From positions 62,001 through 126,000 of the forward strand of contig NZ_LT703004.1 of NCBI RefSeq assembly GCF_900149695.1: a DNA stretch of 64,000 bases, given 5' to 3'. Shown here in pieces: positions 45,064 through 63,495 of this stretch. Origin of the DNA: Anderseniella sp. Alg231-50 (lineage in GTDB: Bacteria > Pseudomonadota > Alphaproteobacteria > Rhizobiales > Aestuariivirgaceae). Numbering within the stretch: position 1 is the stretch's first letter; the number at the start of each line of letters is the position of its first letter. A program made the position numbers and the translations under genes. The notes under the pieces were generated by a model that did not search any database, had not been told where the DNA came from, and worked only from the letters and a program-made list of their open reading frames with translations.

Positions 45064-46176
45064 TTAAACTTCCTTGCTGCAAATCAGATAGGCGTGCACA
45101 TAGTCCATCGCATGGCCTTCAGGCGCGGCGGCAACACTGGCCTGATAGCGTCCGTAAAATTCGTCCATGATGGCCTGCCTTTCGGCTTCACCGCGACCCG
45201 CATCAAGCCCGCCCAGGAACGTGGCTTCCGACCATGACCTCAGCGTTGGCAGATACTCCGTCGCAAACCGGGCCGCATCCTTGTGGTTTTCAGTAAAATC
45301 CTGTTCGAACGGGCAGCGCACCACCCGGGTTTCAACATGCTCCAGCCGCAGGCCTGCCTGGTACACCGGACTGTTCTTATCATTCAGCGGCGCCGTGAAC
45401 TCTTCAACCGTGCGGTAGTGCTGCGGGAAATTGGTATTCAGATATTCATCCCGCGAGATGACGCCGTCATCGGCCAGTTGGCTCCAGAACCTGTTGAAGG
45501 TGTCGAACATGCTGACACCGCCGGTATCGCCAAGATAGCGGCCCTCCTCGTCAATACCGAAGTTGAACAGGCACAGCCGGCCACCGTGCTTCAACTCGCG
45601 GGTACGCTGCAGCAGCATGGTCTCCCAGTCGGTCGCGCCCTGCCTGGTGAACGCATCGCGTTCAGCACCGCTTGCACCGACCATATGCACATGGTCGGTG
45701 ATGTTGCAGGGTGTCGAAGAAATGTAGTGAGACGCGGTTGCCGAAAACCCGAGATCCAGAGTCTGTGCCGGAAAGATGTTCTGGTGAAACGATGTGCCGG
45801 AGGCAAACACGTACAGGTCCTCGATTTCCGGGTAATAGCTTTGCGTGTCGGTTTGCCCGTGGATCATGCGGAAGACCTGGGCGAAGTCGTTGCGCGGCAG
45901 GTCGGTGTAGGTCATTTCAATGGGACGCGACGGCACACGGGCGCGCACATCGGCAAAAACCCGCCGCCAGAGATCGACAGATGTTCCGCCGTCAGCGGCT
46001 CCCATGTCGGTGGCGCGAAAGATGCTGCCATCGTCGACCGGGTCCATGCGCGCAACAGCTTCCAGTACCAGATTGGCCGCTTTGTCCATGACATGCTTGG
46101 CGCCAATGGTGGCTTTCGAGTAGTAGCCGTCGCCTTTCATGGCCATGAAGCCGGCGGTTCCCGGTGCCTTGTTCAT
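45064..46176 (-). CDS. SABATH-family SAM-dependent carboxyl methyltransferase
   Basis: A 370-residue methyltransferase resembling the plant-type SABATH family (Methyltransf_7), which transfers methyl groups from S-adenosylmethionine to carboxylates or ring nitrogens. Diagnostic blocks: 'MKGDGYYSKAT' near residue 13, SAM loop 'DMGAADGGTSV' near 57, 'TDLPRNDFAQVFR' near 90, and 'SATASHYISSTP' where plant enzymes have the 'SLHWLS' strand. SD AGGGAG precedes the ATG at 46176. It opens an operon with two 2-hydroxyacid oxidoreductases and a transporter. The acceptor is unknown; Trp of the plant signature being replaced by Tyr suggests a different acid. Confidence 0.82.
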   Translation of the reverse strand: MNKAPGTAGFMAMKGDGYYSKATIGAKHVMDKAANLVLEAVARMDPVDDGSIFRATDMGAADGGTSVDLWRRVFADVRARVPSRPIEMTYTDLPRNDFAQVFRMIHGQTDTQSYYPEIEDLYVFASGTSFHQNIFPAQTLDLGFSATASHYISSTPCNITDHVHMVGASGAERDAFTRQGATDWETMLLQRTRELKHGGRLCLFNFGIDEEGRYLGDTGGVSMFDTFNRFWSQLADDGVISRDEYLNTNFPQHYRTVEEFTAPLNDKNSPVYQAGLRLEHVETRVVRCPFEQDFTENHKDAARFATEYLPTLRSWSEATFLGGLDAGRGEAERQAIMDEFYGRYQASVAAAPEGHAMDYVHAYLICSKEV

Positions 46177-48269: not shown

Positions 48270-49841
48270 CTATGAGACACTGTCGGGCAGAACCGACTTG
48301 CGCTGTTCCATAAACGTGCCGAGTTGCTCGTCTATCGCCTGATCAAGATCGGGCGCGACATAGTCGTTGAGCTGTCTCGTCCAGATTGCATTGGCGCGCT
48401 GGGCTGCGTCCATCGAGCCATCCGCCAGCCATTGCTCGAACGAATTGTTGTCGGCAATGCCGGAACGCCAGAACGCATCTTCAAAATTGCGCTGGGTGTG
48501 CTGGCAACCGAGATAGTGGCTGCCCGGCCCGACTTCTTCGATGGCGTCCATCGCCTGGCCGTTTTCGCTCAGGTCAACACCACCGGCAAAGCGCTGCATC
48601 ATCGACAACTGGTCACAATCGATGATGAACTTCTCGTAGCTGGATACCAGCCCGCCTTCCAGCCAGCCGGCCGCGTGCAGCATGAAATTGACGCCTGCAA
48701 GCACGCCGGGGAAAACCGTGTTGGAGCTCTCATGGGCAGCCTGGGCATCGGGAAGTTTCGAGGCGCACAACGAGCCGCCGGAACGGAACGGAACACCCAG
48801 CCTGCGCGCCAGCTGGGCAGCGCCGAACAGCACGTGTGCGGGCTCCGGCGTGCCGAACGTCGGAGCACCCGACTGCATGGACATCGAGGAGGCAAACGTG
48901 CCGAACACGACCGGCGCTCCGGGACGGCACAGCTGCGAGAACGCAAGTCCCACGGACGCTTCGGCCAGAACCTGGGTCAGGGTTCCGATCACTGTCACCG
49001 GCGACATGGCCCCTGCCAGGATAAACGGCGACACGACGCTTGCCTGCCCGGCACGTGCATATACTTTCAAGGCGCCAACCATGGTGTCGTCAAACACCAT
49101 GGGTGAGTTGGCGTTGATCAGGTTTATCAGCACGCAGTTGTTGTCGACGAAATCGTCGCCAAAAACCATTTTGGCCATGGCGACACTGTCTTCGGCGCGC
49201 TCCGGCGCGGTGACCGAACCCATGAAAGGTTTGTCGGAATAGCGAATATGGCTGTACACCATGTCGAGGTGGCGTTTGGCGACGGGAATGTCGACCGGTT
49301 CGCAAACCGTGCCACCGGAATGATGCATGGCCGGTGCCGTGTACGCCAGTTTCACAAAATTCCGGAAATCCTCGATGGTCGCGTAGCGGCGCCCGCCGTT
49401 CAGGTCATGCACGAATGGTGGGCCGTATACAGGTGCAAATACGGTATTCTTGCCGCCAATCTCTACACTGCGGGCCGGATTGCGGGCATGCTGGGTAAAC
49501 TGTGACGGCGCCGTCTTGATCAGTGATCGCACAAGACCCTTGGGAAACCTGACACGCTCGCCTTTGACATCGGCTCCAGCGGCCTTCCACATCTCCAGCG
49601 CTTCGGCGTCGTCGCGGAAATCGATGCCGATTTCCTGCAATACCTTTTCACAGTTGGCCTCGATCAGAGACAGGCCTTCCTCGCCGAGTACTTCGTAAAG
49701 CGGAATTTGGCGCTTGATGTAGCTGAATGCCTGGATGCCACCACCAAGTCGCGCCGCGCGGCGGCCTTCCGCCCCGCCACCGCCCCTGCGGCTGCGGCGT
49801 GCAGGAGTGGCGTCAGACGGTGCTTCAGTTTCTGTAGACAT
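48270..49841 (-). CDS. MttB-family (non-pyrrolysine) corrinoid methyltransferase
   Basis: A 523-residue trimethylamine-methyltransferase-family protein. The frame is continuous with no in-frame TAG, so it lacks pyrrolysine and belongs with MtgB-like betaine methyltransferases. TIM-barrel blocks include 'SVEIGGKNTVFAPVYGPPFVHD' (span), 'SGGTVCEPVD', 'INANSPMVFDD', 'SGAPTFGTPE' and 'GWLEGGLVSSYEKFI'. The N-terminus (about residues 14-36) is Arg/Gly-rich ('ARRSRRGGGG', 'EGRRAARLGGG'). The ATG at 49841 is preferred to the GTG before it. The methyl donor (betaine, other quaternary amine or sulfonium) is unknown. Partner methyltransferase and activator genes lie 2-5 kb away on the other strand. Confidence 0.88.
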   Translation of the reverse strand: MSTETEAPSDATPARRSRRGGGGAEGRRAARLGGGIQAFSYIKRQIPLYEVLGEEGLSLIEANCEKVLQEIGIDFRDDAEALEMWKAAGADVKGERVRFPKGLVRSLIKTAPSQFTQHARNPARSVEIGGKNTVFAPVYGPPFVHDLNGGRRYATIEDFRNFVKLAYTAPAMHHSGGTVCEPVDIPVAKRHLDMVYSHIRYSDKPFMGSVTAPERAEDSVAMAKMVFGDDFVDNNCVLINLINANSPMVFDDTMVGALKVYARAGQASVVSPFILAGAMSPVTVIGTLTQVLAEASVGLAFSQLCRPGAPVVFGTFASSMSMQSGAPTFGTPEPAHVLFGAAQLARRLGVPFRSGGSLCASKLPDAQAAHESSNTVFPGVLAGVNFMLHAAGWLEGGLVSSYEKFIIDCDQLSMMQRFAGGVDLSENGQAMDAIEEVGPGSHYLGCQHTQRNFEDAFWRSGIADNNSFEQWLADGSMDAAQRANAIWTRQLNDYVAPDLDQAIDEQLGTFMEQRKSVLPDSVS

Positions 49842-49961
49842 CACGAATTTTCCACCTGTTGAGTAAAGCTAACCATGTTGTTAGGCCCATTACCAGCAGG
49901 CTTCTTCCGGTGATGCGTCCAGAAATGGTCATTTAGCGACCATGATCATCCGGTGTGCCCA

Positions 49962-49975
49962 ATGATCTGGATCAA
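49962..49975 (+). promoter_or_regulatory. Candidate FNR/FixK box upstream of usp
   Basis: ATGAT-CTGG-ATCAA differs by one base from the FNR-type consensus TTGAT-N4-ATCAA. Its centre is about 84 bp before the usp start; a CATAGA hexamer at 50002-50007 could be the -10 element, which would place the box near the class II activator position. Universal stress genes are common FnrL/FixK targets in alphaproteobacteria. Confidence 0.5.
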
Positions 49976-50052
49976 CCCACTTGTCCCGCAATCATGGCAT
50001 CCATAGACTTGAGTACTCGCCATATTGGCCATGAACAGGAAGGGCATTTGCA

Positions 50053-50463
50053 ATGTTCAAGAAAATACTTGTACCGGTAGACCTCACTCACAACGAGCTT
50101 GGAGTGCAGATGATCAATCTGGCGAAAGAAATTGGCGGCGATTCCGCGGAAATAATCCTTACCCATGTGGTACACGACATACCTTCATATGCTGCGGTCG
50201 AAATTTCCGGCGAATTGCTGGACAAGACCCACAAATGGGCCAAGGCAGAGCTGGAAAAACTGGCGAAGGACAATAATGTATCCGGCCCCGCAGACCTGCG
50301 GCACGGCTCTGCCGGCTCGGCAATCCTGGAAGCTGCCACACAGCACGGCGCGGACCTTGTTATCATCGGCTCTCACAAACCCGGCGTTGCCGACTATTTC
50401 CTTGGCTCAACGGCCGGGCGCGTTGTGCGCCATGCCCAGTGCCCGGTCCTTGTCATGCGCTAA
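50053..50463 (+). CDS. Universal stress protein, ATP-binding UspA type
   Basis: A 136-residue single-domain Usp. It begins 'KKILVPVDLTHNELG' and ends with the ATP-binding motif G-2x-G-9x-G-S/T in 'IIGSHKPGVADYFLGSTAGRVV' (span), followed by 'CPVLVMR'. A probable FNR-type box lies 84 bp upstream, suggesting induction at low oxygen. It sits between the MttB-like gene (divergent, 211 bp away) and metF. Confidence 0.92.
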   Translation: MFKKILVPVDLTHNELGVQMINLAKEIGGDSAEIILTHVVHDIPSYAAVEISGELLDKTHKWAKAELEKLAKDNNVSGPADLRHGSAGSAILEAATQHGADLVIIGSHKPGVADYFLGSTAGRVVRHAQCPVLVMR

Positions 50464-50565
50464 AGCGTGACGGGGTCCACGAACCCCAAGACCGTGTCCT
50501 GACAATCTGGAAGCGATCAGGTTCTGATTGCAGCAATCAATATGCTGATCAAAGCCAGAACCTGC

Positions 50566-50609
50566 TTGACCTCCATGCCTTCTTTTAATATATAAAGATA
50601 TCTTTATAT
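50566..50609 (+). promoter_or_regulatory. metF promoter with 20-bp palindromic operator
   Basis: A near-consensus promoter, TTGACC (50566-50571), 17 bp, TATATA (50589-50594). A perfect 20-bp palindrome, ATATAAAGATATCTTTATAT (50590-50609), covers the -10 box and the predicted start site and abuts the Shine-Dalgarno sequence. Occupancy would block transcription. Methionine-cycle genes in proteobacteria are controlled by ArsR-type sensors of S-adenosylhomocysteine or S-adenosylmethionine that bind AT-rich palindromes of this form; the regulator here is inferred. Confidence 0.65.
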
Positions 50610-50620
50610 GGAGGGTGTGG

Positions 50621-51529
50621 ATGTCGATAATTTCCCATGTGTCTGGCGGTTTTGCCCCTGGCGGCAACCCTCGTGTGTCGTTTGAAGTGTTCCCGGCCCG
50701 CTCAACCATGCAAAGCGACGGCATGGCAGAACTTGCCCGGGTCATGCGCAAGTACGATCCGGTTTTTGCATCTGTGACCTATGGCGCAGGCGGAACCAGT
50801 CATCAGGCGTCGTTCGGTACTGTTGGCCAACTGCTGGGCGTGGACGGCCTCGATGTGGTCGGACACCTGACATGTGCCGGTCAATCGCGAGCGCAAACCG
50901 ATGCCGTGATTGAAAGGTATGCCGCACAGGGCGTGAAAGGCATTCTGGCCCTGCGCGGCGACATGCCGGGCATATCAGGGCCCTATCAACCGCACCCGGA
51001 CGGGTATGAAAACGGCGCCGATCTGGCCACCGCTGTGATCAATCGCGGCAGCCTCGACACCTATGTCGCGGCCTATCCGGAAGTTCATCCGGCGTCCGGG
51101 TCCGGTCATGCCTGCATCGCCAATCTGAAAACCAAGCTGGCGACCGGCGCCAAAGCCGCCATCACCCAGTTCTTTTTCGACAATCGGGACTATTTTCATT
51201 TCATGGAGCAGGTTCGCGCAGCGGGTATCTACCAGCCTGTCGTTCCGGGCATCCTGCTGATCCACGACTTCGCCAAGGTGGCGAGTTTTGCCGGCAAATG
51301 CAAGGCGCGCATTCCGGACCATCTGCATGCCGCCTTTGACGGTCTGGCGCCCCACTCCACCCGGCACAAGGCGCTGGCGTGTGAACTGGCGGCCCAACAG
51401 ATCATGCAACTGGGCGCGCAGGGTGTGGATCACGTTCACATCTACTCCATGAATCGTCCCGATCTGGTGGACCAGACCTGCGGGCTGGCCGGAATTGCCC
51501 AAATAACCGAGATGGCCGGTGCAATGTAG
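50621..51529 (+). CDS. metF: Methylenetetrahydrofolate reductase
   Basis: A 302-residue FAD enzyme interconverting methylene-THF and methyl-THF. The start is the ATG at 50621, 5 nt after GGAGGG; a GTG at 50615 overlaps that site. Recognisable strands are 'VSFEVFPARS' (with the catalytic Glu), 'FASVTYGAGGT', 'VVGHLTCAG', 'ILALRGDMPG' and 'ITQFFFDN'. It begins a rightward cluster with a methyl-THF:corrinoid methyltransferase and its activator, so it may run in the oxidative direction to process methyl groups from MttB substrates as well as serve methionine synthesis. Confidence 0.93.
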   Translation: MSIISHVSGGFAPGGNPRVSFEVFPARSTMQSDGMAELARVMRKYDPVFASVTYGAGGTSHQASFGTVGQLLGVDGLDVVGHLTCAGQSRAQTDAVIERYAAQGVKGILALRGDMPGISGPYQPHPDGYENGADLATAVINRGSLDTYVAAYPEVHPASGSGHACIANLKTKLATGAKAAITQFFFDNRDYFHFMEQVRAAGIYQPVVPGILLIHDFAKVASFAGKCKARIPDHLHAAFDGLAPHSTRHKALACELAAQQIMQLGAQGVDHVHIYSMNRPDLVDQTCGLAGIAQITEMAGAM

Positions 51530-51542
51530 GCTTGTTGCAGTC

Positions 51543-51571
51543 GGTTTTGCGCGTGTGCTGGTCGCAAAACC
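51543..51571 (+). terminator. Hairpin after metF
   Basis: GGTTTTGCG (51543-51551) pairs perfectly with CGCAAAACC (51563-51571). There is no T-run, so it may be an attenuator or RNA-stability element rather than a full terminator. Confidence 0.35.
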
Positions 51572-51644
51572 TGCAGTGTTGTGGTGCGCCCGCGCCTATA
51601 TCTGAGCCAGTACCAAACCCTGACCTGAAAAGCTGATTTCTTCG

Positions 51645-51944
51645 ATGGCCAAATTATTCATCACCTACTGGCGCGACATCCCTTCACAGGTGACCGCCAA
51701 AGCCGGACGCAACAAGGCAGAAAAGAAAATGCTGTCAGACCGGTTTCAGGAGGCCATCGACATGGCCGCCATGCGCTCCAAGGCAGCAGACTCCGACGAC
51801 TATCTGGACGAATGGCGCCGCGGTGATCCGGTTGACTGCGGCGACGATCTCATGGCCGCCGTCACCCAAACCGCCGAGCAACTTGAAACCGACTATGACC
51901 AGGATCGGATCAAGGCGCTTATTGCATCCGGTGGTACCGCCTGA
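51645..51944 (+). CDS. Small Virulence_fact-family protein
   Basis: A 99-residue soluble protein, rich in charged residues: 'LFITYWRDIPSQVTAKAGR', 'LSDRFQEAIDMAAMRSKA', 'DDYLDEWRRGD'. The pattern fits the small family labelled 'Virulence factor' in Pfam, which has no biochemical function. Its position between metF and the methyl-THF:corrinoid methyltransferase, all on one strand, suggests a role in corrinoid methyl transfer rather than virulence. No cysteine cluster or membrane segment is visible. Confidence 0.72.
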   Translation: MAKLFITYWRDIPSQVTAKAGRNKAEKKMLSDRFQEAIDMAAMRSKAADSDDYLDEWRRGDPVDCGDDLMAAVTQTAEQLETDYDQDRIKALIASGGTA

Positions 51945-52013
51945 CGCAGGCTTGACCGACCAATGACTGTTCTGCTCCCCTCGTGTTCCGTGCTCTAAAA
52001 GGACGCCTCGCAA

Positions 52014-53075
52014 ATGACCCGCACACTCGTCGCCTCAGCCACCAAGGAAGTCATCATCGGCTTTGACCAGCCGTTTTGCGTGATCGGTGAACGCATCAAT
52101 CCGACGGGACGGAAAAAGCTGGCTGCGGAACTGCAGGCAGGGGATTTCTCGACCGTGGAGAAAGACGCGCTTGCACAGGTTGCCTGTGGCGCCACGGTCC
52201 TCGATGTCAATGCCGGTGTGGTTTACAACTCAAACCCGAACCCGAACGAGACCGAACCGCCCCTGATGCGGAAGATGATTGAGCTCGTTCAAGGGCTTGT
52301 CGACGTTCCGTTGTGCATTGACTCCAGTGTTCCCGCCGCTTTGACCGCCGGCCTTGAAACCTGCCAGGGCCGCCCGCTGCTGAATTCCGTAACGGGCGAG
52401 GAAGAGCGCCTCGAATCCATCCTGCCGCTGGTCAAGAAATACAATGTGCCGGTGGTGGCCATCTCCAATGACGACACCGGCATTTCGGAAGACCCCGATG
52501 TTCGCTTCGCCGTAGCCAAGAAGATTGTCGAGCGGGCCGCAGATTTCGGCATTCCGGCGCATGATATCGTGGTCGACCCGCTGGTCATGCCGGTCGGCGC
52601 AATGGGCACGGCAGGCCTTCAGGTGTTTGCCCTGGTGCGGCGCCTGCGTGAAGAACTTGGCGTCAATACAACCTGTGGCGCGTCCAATATATCATTTGGC
52701 CTGCCGAACAGGCACGGCATCAACAACGCCTTCCTGCCGATGGCGGCAGCGGCCGGCATGACGTCGGCCATCATGAATCCGGTACAGGCGGCCGCAACGC
52801 CAAAGAAAATCGAAGACCGCGTTGCAGAACTCGCCGCCATGGGAATCGTGATACCAGAAGGTATTGATATGGATGCGCTGGCTCCGCTTATAGGACTGGG
52901 ATCCACCAAGGCGACACCGTCCAAGGAAATTGAGGCCATCAAGGCCGCCGACTTCCTGATGGACAATGATGCATCAGGTGGCAACTGGATCAGGTTCAAC
53001 AAGCCGCCCGCCAGTGCCAACGCACCACAAGGCGCGCGTGGTGATCGTGAAGGACGCCGGCGGCGCAGAGGTTAG
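52014..53075 (+). CDS. Methyltetrahydrofolate:corrinoid methyltransferase (MtgA/AcsE-like)
   Basis: A 353-residue pterin-binding TIM barrel that moves methyl groups between a corrinoid protein and tetrahydrofolate. Blocks: 'VIGERINPTGRKKLA', 'GATVLDVNAG' (folate-contacting Asp/Asn), 'DVPLCIDSS', 'RPLLNSVTGEE' and 'CGASNISFGLPNR'. The enzyme domain ends near residue 320; the C-terminus is an Arg-rich tail ending 'EGRRRRRG' preceded by 'GARGD'. It lies 18 bp before the activator gene (from its first ATG) and completes, with MttB, the demethylation branch. Confidence 0.9.
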   Translation: MTRTLVASATKEVIIGFDQPFCVIGERINPTGRKKLAAELQAGDFSTVEKDALAQVACGATVLDVNAGVVYNSNPNPNETEPPLMRKMIELVQGLVDVPLCIDSSVPAALTAGLETCQGRPLLNSVTGEEERLESILPLVKKYNVPVVAISNDDTGISEDPDVRFAVAKKIVERAADFGIPAHDIVVDPLVMPVGAMGTAGLQVFALVRRLREELGVNTTCGASNISFGLPNRHGINNAFLPMAAAAGMTSAIMNPVQAAATPKKIEDRVAELAAMGIVIPEGIDMDALAPLIGLGSTKATPSKEIEAIKAADFLMDNDASGGNWIRFNKPPASANAPQGARGDREGRRRRRG

Positions 53076-53123
53076 GATCGTTATCCGGGGATCATGACCC
53101 TGGATACTGGAACGGGGAGAGGT

Positions 53124-55169
53124 ATGGCAGACGGCGGACGCAGCGACGCACTTATCGTTTTCACGCCTTCAGGCAAGCGCGGGCGCTTTCCGATAGGCAC
53201 GCCGGTGCTGCAGGCTGCCCGTGCTCTCGGCGTTGACATTGACAGTGTGTGTGGCGGCCGCGCCATTTGCGGACGCTGCCAGGTCACCCCCTCCATCGGT
53301 GATTTCGCCAAGCATGGCATTACCTCGAAACCGGAAAACCTTGGCCCGGTCACCAGCGTCGAGATCCGATACAACGAAAAGCGCGGGCTGAAAGCCGATC
53401 GCAGGCTATCGTGCCAGACACTGATGCTAGGCGACTGCGTGGTGGATGTTCCGCCCGAAAGCCAGGTTCACAAACAGGTTGTGCGCAAGCGCGCCGAAGT
53501 GCGTGACATCAAGCTCGATCCGGTCACCAAGCTCTATTACATCGTCGTCGATGAACCGGACATGCATCACCCCTCCTCCGATCTGGAGCGCGTCTACAAT
53601 GCGCTGAGGGCGCAGTGGGGCATCGATCAGGTTACCTGCGACCTGGCCATCATGCAGGCGCTGCAATCGGCCCTGCGCAAAGGCGAATGGCGCATTACGC
53701 TTGCTGTTCACAGCCGCATGGCCAGCAAGACCGCCCGGATCACGGCTATCTGGCCCGGGTTTCATGATCGTGCTTACGGCATGGCTGTCGATGTGGGCTC
53801 CACCACGATCGCAGCCCATCTGTGTGACCTGTCCACCGGCGAGATCAAATCTTCAGCCGGTCTGATGAACCCGCAGATCCGCTTCGGTGAAGACCTGATG
53901 AGCCGCGTTTCGTATGTGATGATGAACCCCGGCGGCGACAAGGAAATGACCGCTGTCGTGCGCGAGGCCCTGAACGAGCTGGCCCGCGAGGTTGCCGGTG
54001 AAGCCGACGTCGATCTGTCCGACATTCTCGAGGTTGTGCTGGTTGGCAATCCGGTCATGCATCATCTCATGCTGGGCATCGATCCGACCGAACTGGGCGG
54101 CGCTCCGTTTGCGCTGGCCACCGGGCTGCCGGTCACCCGCCCGGCGCGTGAATTCGATCTTGAACTCAACAATGGCGCCTATGTCTATGTGCTGCCCTGC
54201 ATTGCCGGCCATGTCGGCGCAGATACCGCCGGTGTCGTGTTGTCGGAAAGCCCGCATCTGTCGGAACGGATGATGCTGGTCGTCGATGTCGGGACCAATG
54301 CGGAAATCGTGCTGGGCAACAAGGACCGGGTGCTGGCGTGTTCGTCTCCTACCGGACCGGCTTTCGAAGGCGCGCAGATTTCATGCGGCCAGCGCGCTGC
54401 CCCAGGTGCCATCGAGCGGCTGCGCATTGACCCCGATACGCTGGAACCGCGCTTCAAGGTCATCGGCTGCGACCTGTGGTCGGATGAGCCGGGCTTTGAG
54501 GACGAGATCGCCTCTACCGGCGTTACAGGTGTGTGCGGGTCTGCCATCATCGAGGCCGTGGCTGAGCTTTATCTGTCCGGGGTGATAAACCAGGACGGGC
54601 TGTTTGACGGCGCCATGGCCGCAAAATCACCCCGAGTGATACAGACCGGCCGCACCTTCGCCTACGTCATCCGCGAAGGCGAACCACTTATCTCCATCAC
54701 CCAGAACGATGTGCGCGCCATCCAGCTTGCCAAGGCAGCGCTTTATGCCGGCGTTCAATTGCTGATGGACAAGCTGGAACTGGAAAAGGTCGATACCATC
54801 CGTCTGGCAGGCGCCTTTGGCAGCCACATTGATGTCAAGTACGCCATGATTTTGGGGCTGATCCCCGATTGTGACCTTGCCCATGTACATTCTGCCGGCA
54901 ACGCTGCCGGCACCGGCGCGCGTATTGCTCTGCTCAACACCGAAGGCCGCGACGAGATCGAGGACGTGGTCACGCGCATCGAGAAGATCGAAACAGCCGT
55001 GGAGCCAATGTTCCAGCAACACTTTATCGAGGCCATGGCCATGCCGCACAAAACCGCGCCATTCCCCAACCTGGCATCTGTTGTGAATCTGCCGCAAATC
55101 AAGGAAATAACGCCGGTTGGAGCTGATGGAAGCGAGGGCCGCGAGCGGCGCCGGAAACGTCGCGGGTAA
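53124..55169 (+). CDS. RACo/RamA-type reductive activator of corrinoid protein (2Fe-2S, ASKHA)
   Basis: A 681-residue protein from the ATG at 53124 (GGGGAGAGG just upstream; an ATG at 53094 is possible). It returns inactive Co(II) corrinoid to Co(I) using ATP. The N-terminal ferredoxin domain has the C-x5-C-x2-C pattern in 'VCGGRAICGRCQ' with a fourth Cys in 'LSCQTL'. The ASKHA ATPase (DUF4445) follows, with 'AVDVGSTTIAAHLCDL', 'VVDVGTNAEIVLG' and 'LAGAFGSHID'. It ends in an Arg-rich tail 'EGRERRRKRRG'. Repairing an O2-sensitive cofactor is consistent with an aerobic or microaerobic host. Confidence 0.9.
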   Translation: MADGGRSDALIVFTPSGKRGRFPIGTPVLQAARALGVDIDSVCGGRAICGRCQVTPSIGDFAKHGITSKPENLGPVTSVEIRYNEKRGLKADRRLSCQTLMLGDCVVDVPPESQVHKQVVRKRAEVRDIKLDPVTKLYYIVVDEPDMHHPSSDLERVYNALRAQWGIDQVTCDLAIMQALQSALRKGEWRITLAVHSRMASKTARITAIWPGFHDRAYGMAVDVGSTTIAAHLCDLSTGEIKSSAGLMNPQIRFGEDLMSRVSYVMMNPGGDKEMTAVVREALNELAREVAGEADVDLSDILEVVLVGNPVMHHLMLGIDPTELGGAPFALATGLPVTRPAREFDLELNNGAYVYVLPCIAGHVGADTAGVVLSESPHLSERMMLVVDVGTNAEIVLGNKDRVLACSSPTGPAFEGAQISCGQRAAPGAIERLRIDPDTLEPRFKVIGCDLWSDEPGFEDEIASTGVTGVCGSAIIEAVAELYLSGVINQDGLFDGAMAAKSPRVIQTGRTFAYVIREGEPLISITQNDVRAIQLAKAALYAGVQLLMDKLELEKVDTIRLAGAFGSHIDVKYAMILGLIPDCDLAHVHSAGNAAGTGARIALLNTEGRDEIEDVVTRIEKIETAVEPMFQQHFIEAMAMPHKTAPFPNLASVVNLPQIKEITPVGADGSEGRERRRKRRG

Positions 55170-61926: not shown

Positions 61927-63495
61927 TCAGAAGTCGGTCGGTGCGCCGCCTTCTTCGGTGCGCCTGGCTACAAATGCCTCCAGCTCTTCCTCAACAGCTG
62001 GGTCAATCGCGGGTTTCCGGTAAGTTTCCAGTACCTGCTTCAGCACCGCGCTGGCCTTGTCGCCGGCACGCGGTGAACCCGCCGATTGCCATTGCTCGAA
62101 ATTGCGCCAGTCTGAAATCAGCGGTGCGTAAAATGCGTTCTGGTAGCGTGCCATGGTGTGGGCGCAACCGAAGAAATGCCCACCGGGCCCAACCTCGTCC
62201 ATGGCATCGAGCCCGAGCGCGTCACGCGTCAGATCCAGAGGCTGCAGAAACGATTTGACCATCTGTATCAGGTCGCAGTCGAGTACGAACTTTTCCAGTG
62301 ACGCGACCAGCCCGCCTTCCATCCATCCGGCACCATGCATGACCAGATTGCCGCCGCCCATGGCGACACCCCACAGGGAAAACACACTTTCGTAAGCGGC
62401 CTGGGCATCCAGCGCATTGGCAGCACAGGTATTCGAGGTGCGATACGGAATGGCGTAGCGGCGGGCCAATTGACCACCAACCATCGCCGCCTTCATGTAT
62501 TCCGGCGTGCCGAATGCAGGCGCGCCCGACTTCATGTCGACATTGGAGGTGAAGCCACCGTAAATTGCCGGTGCGCCGGGGCGCACAAGCTGGGTGAGAG
62601 CAATGCCGGCAAGGGCTTCGGCGTTCTGCTGCACCAAAGCGCCGGCAACCGTCACCGGGGCCATGGCGCCTGACAGCGTGAACGGCGTGACGCAGACGAT
62701 CTGGTTGCGGCGCGCCATTTCAATGACGCCCTGCAGCATCGGCACATCCATTTTCAGGGGCGAGTTGGTGTTGATGATGGTGAACAGCGACGGCTCGGCC
62801 TCAAGCTGTTCATGGCCTACACCACGGGCGATGCGGGCGATCTCGATGCCGTCACGGATCCGCTCCAGGCCCAGCGAATAGGCATGGAACGGCTTTTCGG
62901 TCATCAACGCCATGTCCTTCAATGCGACCAGGTGGCGAACCGAGGCATGGACATCGATCGGCTCGACCGGATATCCCGATATGAAATCGATGCAGTTGAA
63001 ACTCTGGGCGAGTTTCAGGAAACGCCGGTAATCTTCAAGGTTGCCCGGGCGGCGGCCATGCTCAAGGCCGGAAGAGTTCGGCGCCGAGCCAACAGTGCCG
63101 AATGCCAGCCAGCCATCGCCAATCTGAATTGTCTTGTCCGGGTTACGGGCGTGGAAAGTGAACTGCGACGGCACGGTTGCGATTGCATTCATGATTACAT
63201 CGCCGGGAATGCACACCCGCTCGCCGTCAATTCGGGCCCCTGCCCGCGCAAAATAATCACGTGCCTCCGGCAGCATCACGTCAATGCCGATGGTTTCCAG
63301 CACCTCCAGAGATGCCAGATGCAGGCTTTCCAGCTGGTCATCAGACACAACTCTGGCCGCCTCAAACATGAGCCTTGCCTGACCTGCAGGCTGCTGCGCC
63401 AGTGTCGCCTGGCCTGCATCACCAGCCGCGGCGGCGCGGCGGGCATTTCCACGTCTGCGCGACTTGCGCGGTCCTGTATCCGTCACGTCGCTCAT
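61927..63495 (-). CDS. Second MttB-family (non-pyrrolysine) methyltransferase
   Basis: A 522-residue MttB homologue, paralogous to the one at 48270-49841. Shared blocks are 'SQFTFHARNPDKTIQIG', 'NTNSPLKMD', 'TLSGAMAPVTVAGAL', 'SGAPAFGTPE', 'GWMEGGLVASLEKFVLDCD' (span) and 'VGPGGHFFGCAHT'. There is no in-frame TAG, so no pyrrolysine. Its N-terminus also has a basic leader ('PRKSRRRGNARRA'). It overlaps the LysR gene by 4 bp (ATGA), so expression is probably under that regulator. The methylated substrate is unknown and may differ from that of the first copy. Confidence 0.88.
   Translation of the reverse strand: MSDVTDTGPRKSRRRGNARRAAAAGDAGQATLAQQPAGQARLMFEAARVVSDDQLESLHLASLEVLETIGIDVMLPEARDYFARAGARIDGERVCIPGDVIMNAIATVPSQFTFHARNPDKTIQIGDGWLAFGTVGSAPNSSGLEHGRRPGNLEDYRRFLKLAQSFNCIDFISGYPVEPIDVHASVRHLVALKDMALMTEKPFHAYSLGLERIRDGIEIARIARGVGHEQLEAEPSLFTIINTNSPLKMDVPMLQGVIEMARRNQIVCVTPFTLSGAMAPVTVAGALVQQNAEALAGIALTQLVRPGAPAIYGGFTSNVDMKSGAPAFGTPEYMKAAMVGGQLARRYAIPYRTSNTCAANALDAQAAYESVFSLWGVAMGGGNLVMHGAGWMEGGLVASLEKFVLDCDLIQMVKSFLQPLDLTRDALGLDAMDEVGPGGHFFGCAHTMARYQNAFYAPLISDWRNFEQWQSAGSPRAGDKASAVLKQVLETYRKPAIDPAVEEELEAFVARRTEEGGAPTDF

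Follow-up and report, generated by a model that had tools for sequence, protein, structure and literature searches.

Arginine-rich terminal tails on the partners of the corrinoid protein MtgC in alphaproteobacteria, candidate docking tags of a split methionine synthase

Introduction

The closest described counterpart of the genes considered here is the MtgBCDE system of Ruegeria pomeroyi, a split methionine synthase and glycine-betaine demethylase which is accompanied by a RamA-like activase, DUF1638 and MetF2 (PMC12478193), and which was presented in an earlier account, in Phaeobacter inhibens, as a three-part methionine synthase (PMC5764234). According to the model proposed for R. pomeroyi, methyl groups are passed by MtgB to the corrinoid protein MtgC and exchanged with MtgD, acting on tetrahydrofolate, and with MtgE, acting on homocysteine, the cobalt being re-reduced by the RamA-like protein (PMC12478193). 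The same paper reports that mtgC and mtgD of R. pomeroyi are essential for methionine synthesis and betaine use, and describes the MtgBCDE-type system as a major route of oceanic N-osmolyte demethylation and as the methionine synthase of those roseobacters that it studied. The present report concerns a stretch of 64,000 nucleotides of Anderseniella sp. Alg231-50 (contig NZ_LT703004.1, positions 62,001 to 126,000; called the window hereafter), in which several proteins of such a system begin or end with an arginine-rich peptide, and the distribution of these peptides, referred to as tails at either terminus, in this and other genomes.

Results

The original prediction, made from the window alone, had pointed out Arg/Gly-rich peptides at the ends of four corrinoid methyl-transfer proteins, and all four were found in the translations exactly as written. 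The MttB/MtgB homologue (PF06253; 48270..49844, minus strand; Pfam MTTB, E 2e-229) has an Arg/Gly N-terminal leader with its Arg block, RRSRRGGGGAEGRRAARL, at 49746-49799 (minus strand). The second MttB/MtgB homologue (61927..63495, minus strand; Pfam MTTB, E 2e-194) carries RKSRRRGNARRA at 63433-63468 (minus strand), beyond the coordinates given with the original prediction and still inside the window. The MtgD-type methyltetrahydrofolate (methyl-THF):corrinoid methyltransferase (52014..53075, plus strand; pterin-binding, Pfam Pterin_bind) terminates with RGDREGRRRRRG (53037..53072, plus strand), ending EGRRRRRG at 53072, and the RamA/RACo-type corrinoid activase (53094..55169, plus strand; Fer2, RACo linker, middle and C-terminal domains in Pfam) with SEGRERRRKRRG (55131..55166, plus strand), ending EGRERRRKRRG at 55166. 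A fourth tailed family, the homocysteine-binding MtgE (L017:10040-11068, about 10-11 kb beyond the window end; Pfam), has the C-terminus RRGREGRGRRRG and was not visible to the original prediction because it lies outside the window; the same holds for the acidic leader of the partner MtgC, the corrinoid protein encoded at L017:6079-6777, about 6-7 kb beyond the window end (Pfam). A second MtgE-like copy at C1:662 kb has the C-terminus KARRRRD. In the whole genome 10 PF06253 proteins were detected with Pfam, and in our reading all 10 of these MttB/MtgB paralogues have an Arg/Gly-rich leader, the weakest being that at C1:2271388. Under the MtgBCDE/RamA methyl-transfer model, contact with MtgC is expected of just these four tailed families.

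Conservation was followed in a class sample of 190 alphaproteobacterial genomes, in which MtgD was found in 35 genomes, RACo in 36, MtgB in 40 and MtgE in 30, with MtgC-type corrinoid proteins (at least 74% identity) at 36 places. The loci read were the best 30 of 37 places for MtgD, 30 of 36 for MtgC, 30 of 31 for MtgE and 30 of 39 for RACo; one MtgE locus, L122, is cut by the end of its contig and was left out, so that 29 were counted. For MtgB the best-scoring place of 30 of the 40 genomes was used, one per genome; for G000 this is the MtgB of the window itself. A tail was counted where at least 5 Arg stand in any 16 residues within the last 40 or first 45 residues, a threshold of 5 in 16 that was set after inspection of the data, and results are given per genome because overlapping neighbouring loci count some genes twice. 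MtgB was scored on the open frame over the 45 residues that precede the core, whatever the start codon; at three loci (L340, L348 and L352) the leader read from the nearest start is too short, and the Arg block is seen upstream of that start. Tails were present in RACo of 28/30 genomes, MtgB of 30/30, MtgD of 30/30 and MtgE of 26/29, all four partner tails occurring in 20 of the 22 genomes in which all five proteins were read. The tails thus co-occur in alphaproteobacterial orthologues, as the original prediction had proposed to check, and the outcome that it named as adverse, tails absent or unrelated in orthologues, was looked for and not seen. The MtgC leader, taken as the part preceding the first long helix, was acidic in 30/30 (net charge -5 to -11). 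As a separate observation, one of the two least acidic of these leaders (net -5) is that of G084 (L088 for MtgC, L154 for RACo, L118 for MtgE), where RACo and MtgE are untailed.

A second sample was drawn from GTDB species and comprised 80 named loci surrounding mtgC, the counts being of what these loci contain. Tails were found in 36/36 RACo, 38/39 MtgB, 41/42 MtgE and 30/39 MtgD proteins, the other 9 MtgD keeping 4 Arg as RRGGRAAR or RRGGRAGR, and the MtgC leader was acidic in 80/80 (net -5 to -10). Two other Ruegeria species are among these loci, with an MtgC 84% identical to that of the present genome. In a draw of 398 genomes from the whole phylum, RACo was found in 43, and all 24 further loci that were read are tailed, including L355 (G263), the only match outside the class among the matches listed. 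A set of genomes of low guanine-plus-cytosine (GC) content was likewise tailed (RACo 4/4, MtgB 3/3, MtgD 3/3).

The rarity of the tails on other genes was assessed in 1584 called genes from the window and 80 further stretches (10 picked around MttB or corrinoid genes, 70 arbitrarily), which together make up 1.664 Mb or 36% of the genome; the simple gene caller leaves spurious frames in this set, so that the background is inflated. A strict C-terminal test (at least 5 Arg in the last 14 residues) was passed by 9/1584 genes, three of which are MtgD, RACo and MtgE; several of the other six resemble, in our reading, secreted basic proteins or spurious frames. Equal frequency of tails in unrelated proteins, the other adverse outcome named by the original prediction, is therefore not what this part of the genome shows. 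The looser test used for the orthologues was passed by 60/1584 genes at the C end and 61/1584 at the N end, the proteins of the system included. In the named loci, the strict test was passed by MtgE in 37/38, RACo in 35/35 and MtgD in 19/32 cases, compared with 23/1146 genes outside these families, 0/66 MtgC and 0/37 MtgB C termini (these totals rest on separate gene calls and hence differ from the locus counts above).

Within the neighbourhood itself, no tail was found in the sequences of four genes whose products are not expected to pass methyl groups to MtgC. These are the MetF2-type methylene-THF reductase (50615..51529, plus strand; Pfam MTHFR), which belongs to the same gene cluster and serves as internal negative, the universal stress protein (USP; 50053-50463), the 98-residue Virulence_fact (PF13769) protein between metF2 and mtgD (51648..51944, plus strand) and DUF1638 (PF07796; L017:4810-5451, about 5 kb or more beyond the window end; Pfam), which has a net charge of -9 and is separated from mtgC by about 0.6 kb. 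At the DNA level, a search of the whole genome with a pattern encoding Arg-Arg-Arg-(Gly/Ala)-stop was uninformative, since the two strands gave 58 and 50 matches and the reversed control gave 57 and 64.

The tails vary in their letters, the constant element being an Arg block on a linker of Gly, Ser, Ala and acidic residues. Common 5- to 7-mers were shared between families more often than between shuffled tails, except for MtgB with RACo at length 7. A single strict motif was tried and rejected: RRGGR-AR occurs in 31/84 distinct MtgD tails, 2/71 MtgB, 0/68 MtgE and 0/87 RACo tails, and its scarcity outside MtgD indicates that the tag is a charge block and not one motif.

In AlphaFold2 models, residues 343-353 of MtgD have a predicted local confidence score (pLDDT) below 50 and no secondary structure, and the start of MtgC is loose (residues 1-4, pLDDT below 50) and followed by a helix (residues 14-26) rich in Asp and Glu. 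The whole enzymes are net acidic even with their tails included (MttB -13, RACo -18, MtgD -6), and the Arg block is consequently what provides a charge opposite to that of MtgC. In an exploratory analysis of 28 genomes, the acidity of the MtgC leader followed the mean number of Arg in the partner tails (Spearman rho 0.68, p 6e-5), with r 0.61 for independent contrasts and single-family contrasts of 0.35 for RACo, 0.59 for MtgD, 0.49 for MtgE and 0.54 for MtgB. The partial correlation after GC content, Arg in the RACo core and core charges was 0.53, and GC content does not explain the trend.

Homologues from other corrinoid systems were compared as well. Among solved chains, which may be trimmed constructs, RACo 3ZYY has 8 unaligned residues after the alignment and no room for a tail, the MtgB chains 2QNE and 9YCE have 15 and 2 unaligned residues before it and no room for a leader, and the corrinoid protein 1Y80 has 5 and no room for an extension; 4YYC, the closest MttB-type solved chain, has the leader. 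Alphaproteobacterial controls came from 8 loci of corrinoid paralogues (41-51% identity), three of them in G079 and G087, which also hold MtgC. RACo-like partners at these loci were tailed in 0/3 cases, and two further RACo-like genes of the present genome, one of them 56% identical to the activase of the window, have no tail either, giving 0/5 for activases of other corrinoid systems. Pterin-binding partners reached 5 Arg in 16 residues in 0/3 cases. The leaders of the 5 measurable corrinoid paralogues, with starts chosen by script, have net charges of -1 to -3.

As judged from domains and neighbourhood, the gene set fits an MtgBCDE system with RamA-like activase, DUF1638 and MetF2; the names follow these features and two papers (PMC12478193, PMC5764234). 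Separate MtgB, MtgC, MtgD and MtgE genes with the expected Pfam domains are present, MtgE and MtgD score above the NCBIfam cut-offs of NF005718 and NF005719 respectively, and both a RamA-like activase with RACo domains and DUF1638 occur in this genome. MtgC stays below the cut-offs of NF047996 (211 against 370 bits) and NF047995 (176 against 310 bits); the R. pomeroyi MtgC has been called phylogenetically distinct from the MtgC of anaerobes (PMC12478193). The activase matches the Pfam RACo domains and is below the cut-offs for RamA (TIGR04270, 121 against 500 bits) and AcsV (NF040756, 390 against 800 bits). DUF4445, the domain named for the RamA-like protein in the described system, we take to be the same as the RACo C-terminal family. 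The two MttB/MtgB homologues stay below the equivalog cut-off of the pyrrolysine trimethylamine methyltransferase MttB (TIGR02369), reaching 264 and 316 bits against 525.

Three further features were observed. In a 29-row alignment, MtgD of the window (52014-53075) has an insert after the end of the barrel and ahead of the last helices; it is about 44 residues long, present in this genome, L036 and L037 only and missing from the other 26 rows. At 45064-46176 (minus strand) the window encodes a SAM-dependent (S-adenosylmethionine-dependent) carboxyl methyltransferase of family PF03492, which is known mainly from plants. Near 690 kb of C1 in this genome, a protein of the uroporphyrinogen-decarboxylase type bearing the Lys/Arg tail KKKRKRRPKPTAAA (L016:9748-11136, plus strand) adjoins another corrinoid protein with a strongly acidic leader (L016:11155-11991, plus strand), and the same kind of charge pairing may have arisen here independently.

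Discussion

Taken together, the tails are present and conserved, they are concentrated on proteins that share one carrier as partner while few other genes have them, the MtgD tail is predicted to be disordered and the leader of MtgC is acidic. In our estimate there is a probability of roughly one half that they are interchangeable, disordered electrostatic docking tags for MtgC. The MtgB paralogues, by their N termini, and MtgD, MtgE and the RamA/RACo-type activase, by their C termini, would each present their active site to MtgC, the Arg block on its flexible linker catching the acidic leader and first helix of the corrinoid protein. One MtgC carrier could then be shared or swapped among separately encoded enzymes, in contrast to MetH, where the corresponding enzyme parts are held in one chain. 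We infer that tail and leader would bind one another and that this binding may help methyl transfer or reactivation. The original idea of a common tag on unrelated folds is strongly supported by the conservation of the tails and by their concentration in the partners of one corrinoid protein; the targets then offered (RNA, membrane or a shared scaffold) stay candidates, the evidence favouring the more specific target MtgC because the non-partner neighbours MetF2, USP, the Virulence_fact protein and DUF1638 have no tail.

Several points weigh against docking on MtgC. DUF1638, which the pathway requires in P. inhibens (PMC5764234), is untailed. Bmt (MtgE) of P. inhibens works alone in vitro (PMC12366255), so the tail is unnecessary for some activities. 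The activase and MtgE of G084 and the MtgE of G061 and G088 (4 Arg) fall below the threshold, and the activase of G015 has an Arg run followed by a long extension. Besides the exploratory nature of the charge correlation, the acidity of the MtgC leader partly follows the general acidity of MtgC and RACo, and once G084, G015 and G061 are left out the relation is not significant for RACo (rho 0.34, p 0.10) and MtgE (0.28, p 0.22), those for MtgD and MtgB staying significant. In the named loci all four values are positive and only that of MtgE is significant (rho 0.49; RACo 0.11, MtgD 0.23, MtgB 0.04). Among the controls, apart from the possible trimming of the solved chains, two of the three pterin-binding proteins have 4 Arg in 16 residues, and of the three MttB-like proteins one is clearly without a leader and two have upstream starts that possibly cover Arg-rich residues. 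Finally, arginine tails bind many polyanions.

One rival explanation is that RNA, polyphosphate or some other diffuse polyanion is what the tails bind, the enzymes clustering or condensing without specific contact with MtgC. The Arg/Gly composition is indeed similar to that of nucleic-acid-binding tails, and the charge block is kept while the letters vary; MetF2, the next enzyme of the pathway, and other neighbours are nevertheless untailed, and MtgC itself, which clustering would require, has no Arg tail in any of 66 cases, so that this explanation appears unlikely to us. A neutral Arg-rich extension of GC-rich coding DNA is hardly credible. CGN codons are common in GC-rich genomes and some untailed exceptions exist, but the tails are kept near-universally, and G062, with loci of 32-34% GC and more Lys than Arg in its long frames overall, has 7 Arg and 0 Lys in its MtgD tail, 6 Arg and 1 Lys in that of RACo and 7 Arg and 2 Lys in that of MttB; on the Arg tails of these loci a GC artefact was rejected.

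Quite improbable, in our judgement, is a receptor other than MtgC, for example DUF1638. The presence of this protein follows that of the RamA-like protein in alphaproteobacteria and the text of PMC5764234 gives it no assigned role; in the present genome, it is a close neighbour of mtgC, acidic and itself untailed. Such a receptor would leave unexplained the conserved leader of MtgC and its correlation with tail Arg. No greater credit is given to tails that act inside each enzyme, in oligomer packing, solubility or the stability of acidic proteins, and that resemble one another by convergence: the enzymes are acidic overall, and in a methanogen the MttB hexamer is stabilised by segments at the N terminus (PMC9842639), but the tails occur in four families of one pathway and are absent from most other genes, and other systems have, as far as tested, RACo, MtgB and pterin-binding homologues that lack them.

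Should docking on MtgC be correct, the tag would allow the clients of this carrier to be predicted from sequence, as for the 10 MttB paralogues of this genome. The question touched is how a single carrier is served in turn by corrinoid enzymes that are encoded separately, which a shared tag makes testable through a dozen residues, and engineered one-carbon pathways could use the tag to bring enzymes to a carrier. A broader formulation, that the alphaproteobacterial methionine synthase consists of loose parts joined by a universal Arg-block plug, usable at either end of different folds and docking on the acidic leader of MtgC, is put forward more tentatively; the tag would in that case mark the methyl donors that feed this carrier, including the many uncharacterised MttB paralogues. 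In agreement with the original prediction, which knew of no description of such a tag, none was found among the open-licence papers listed, two of the lists covering 12 of 33 and 12 of 389 matches.

Compared with known systems, a general likeness exists to the docking domains of modular synthases and carriers, short terminal elements that bring separately encoded modules to a shared carrier; those domains are paired, mostly folded and sequence-specific, whereas here one charge block would be reused at N or C termini across families. In anaerobes and methanogens, the corrinoid systems with MtgB, MttBC and RACo employ the same families and the same kind of chemistry, with a methyltransferase, a corrinoid protein and an ASKHA activase, but their solved chains leave no room for the leaders and the activase tail. 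The Ruegeria and Phaeobacter system consists of the same kinds of protein as the present one, namely a PF06253 MtgB, a B12-binding MtgC, a pterin-binding MtgD, a homocysteine-binding MtgE, a RamA-like (DUF4445) activase, DUF1638 and MetF2. Relative to the papers on that system, the Arg tag and the acidic MtgC leader are an addition of the present work, the main text of PMC12478193 containing none of the words "arginine", "tail" and "disordered" and that of PMC5764234 neither "arginine-rich" nor "tail". A corrinoid protein that docks on its methyltransferase through an N-terminal extension has a parallel in MtaC, whose extra N-terminal domain appears to stabilise the complex with MtaB (PMC9842639). 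In MtaC, however, the extension is described as an additional domain for one partner, whereas the short acidic leader of MtgC would have four kinds of tagged partner to serve.

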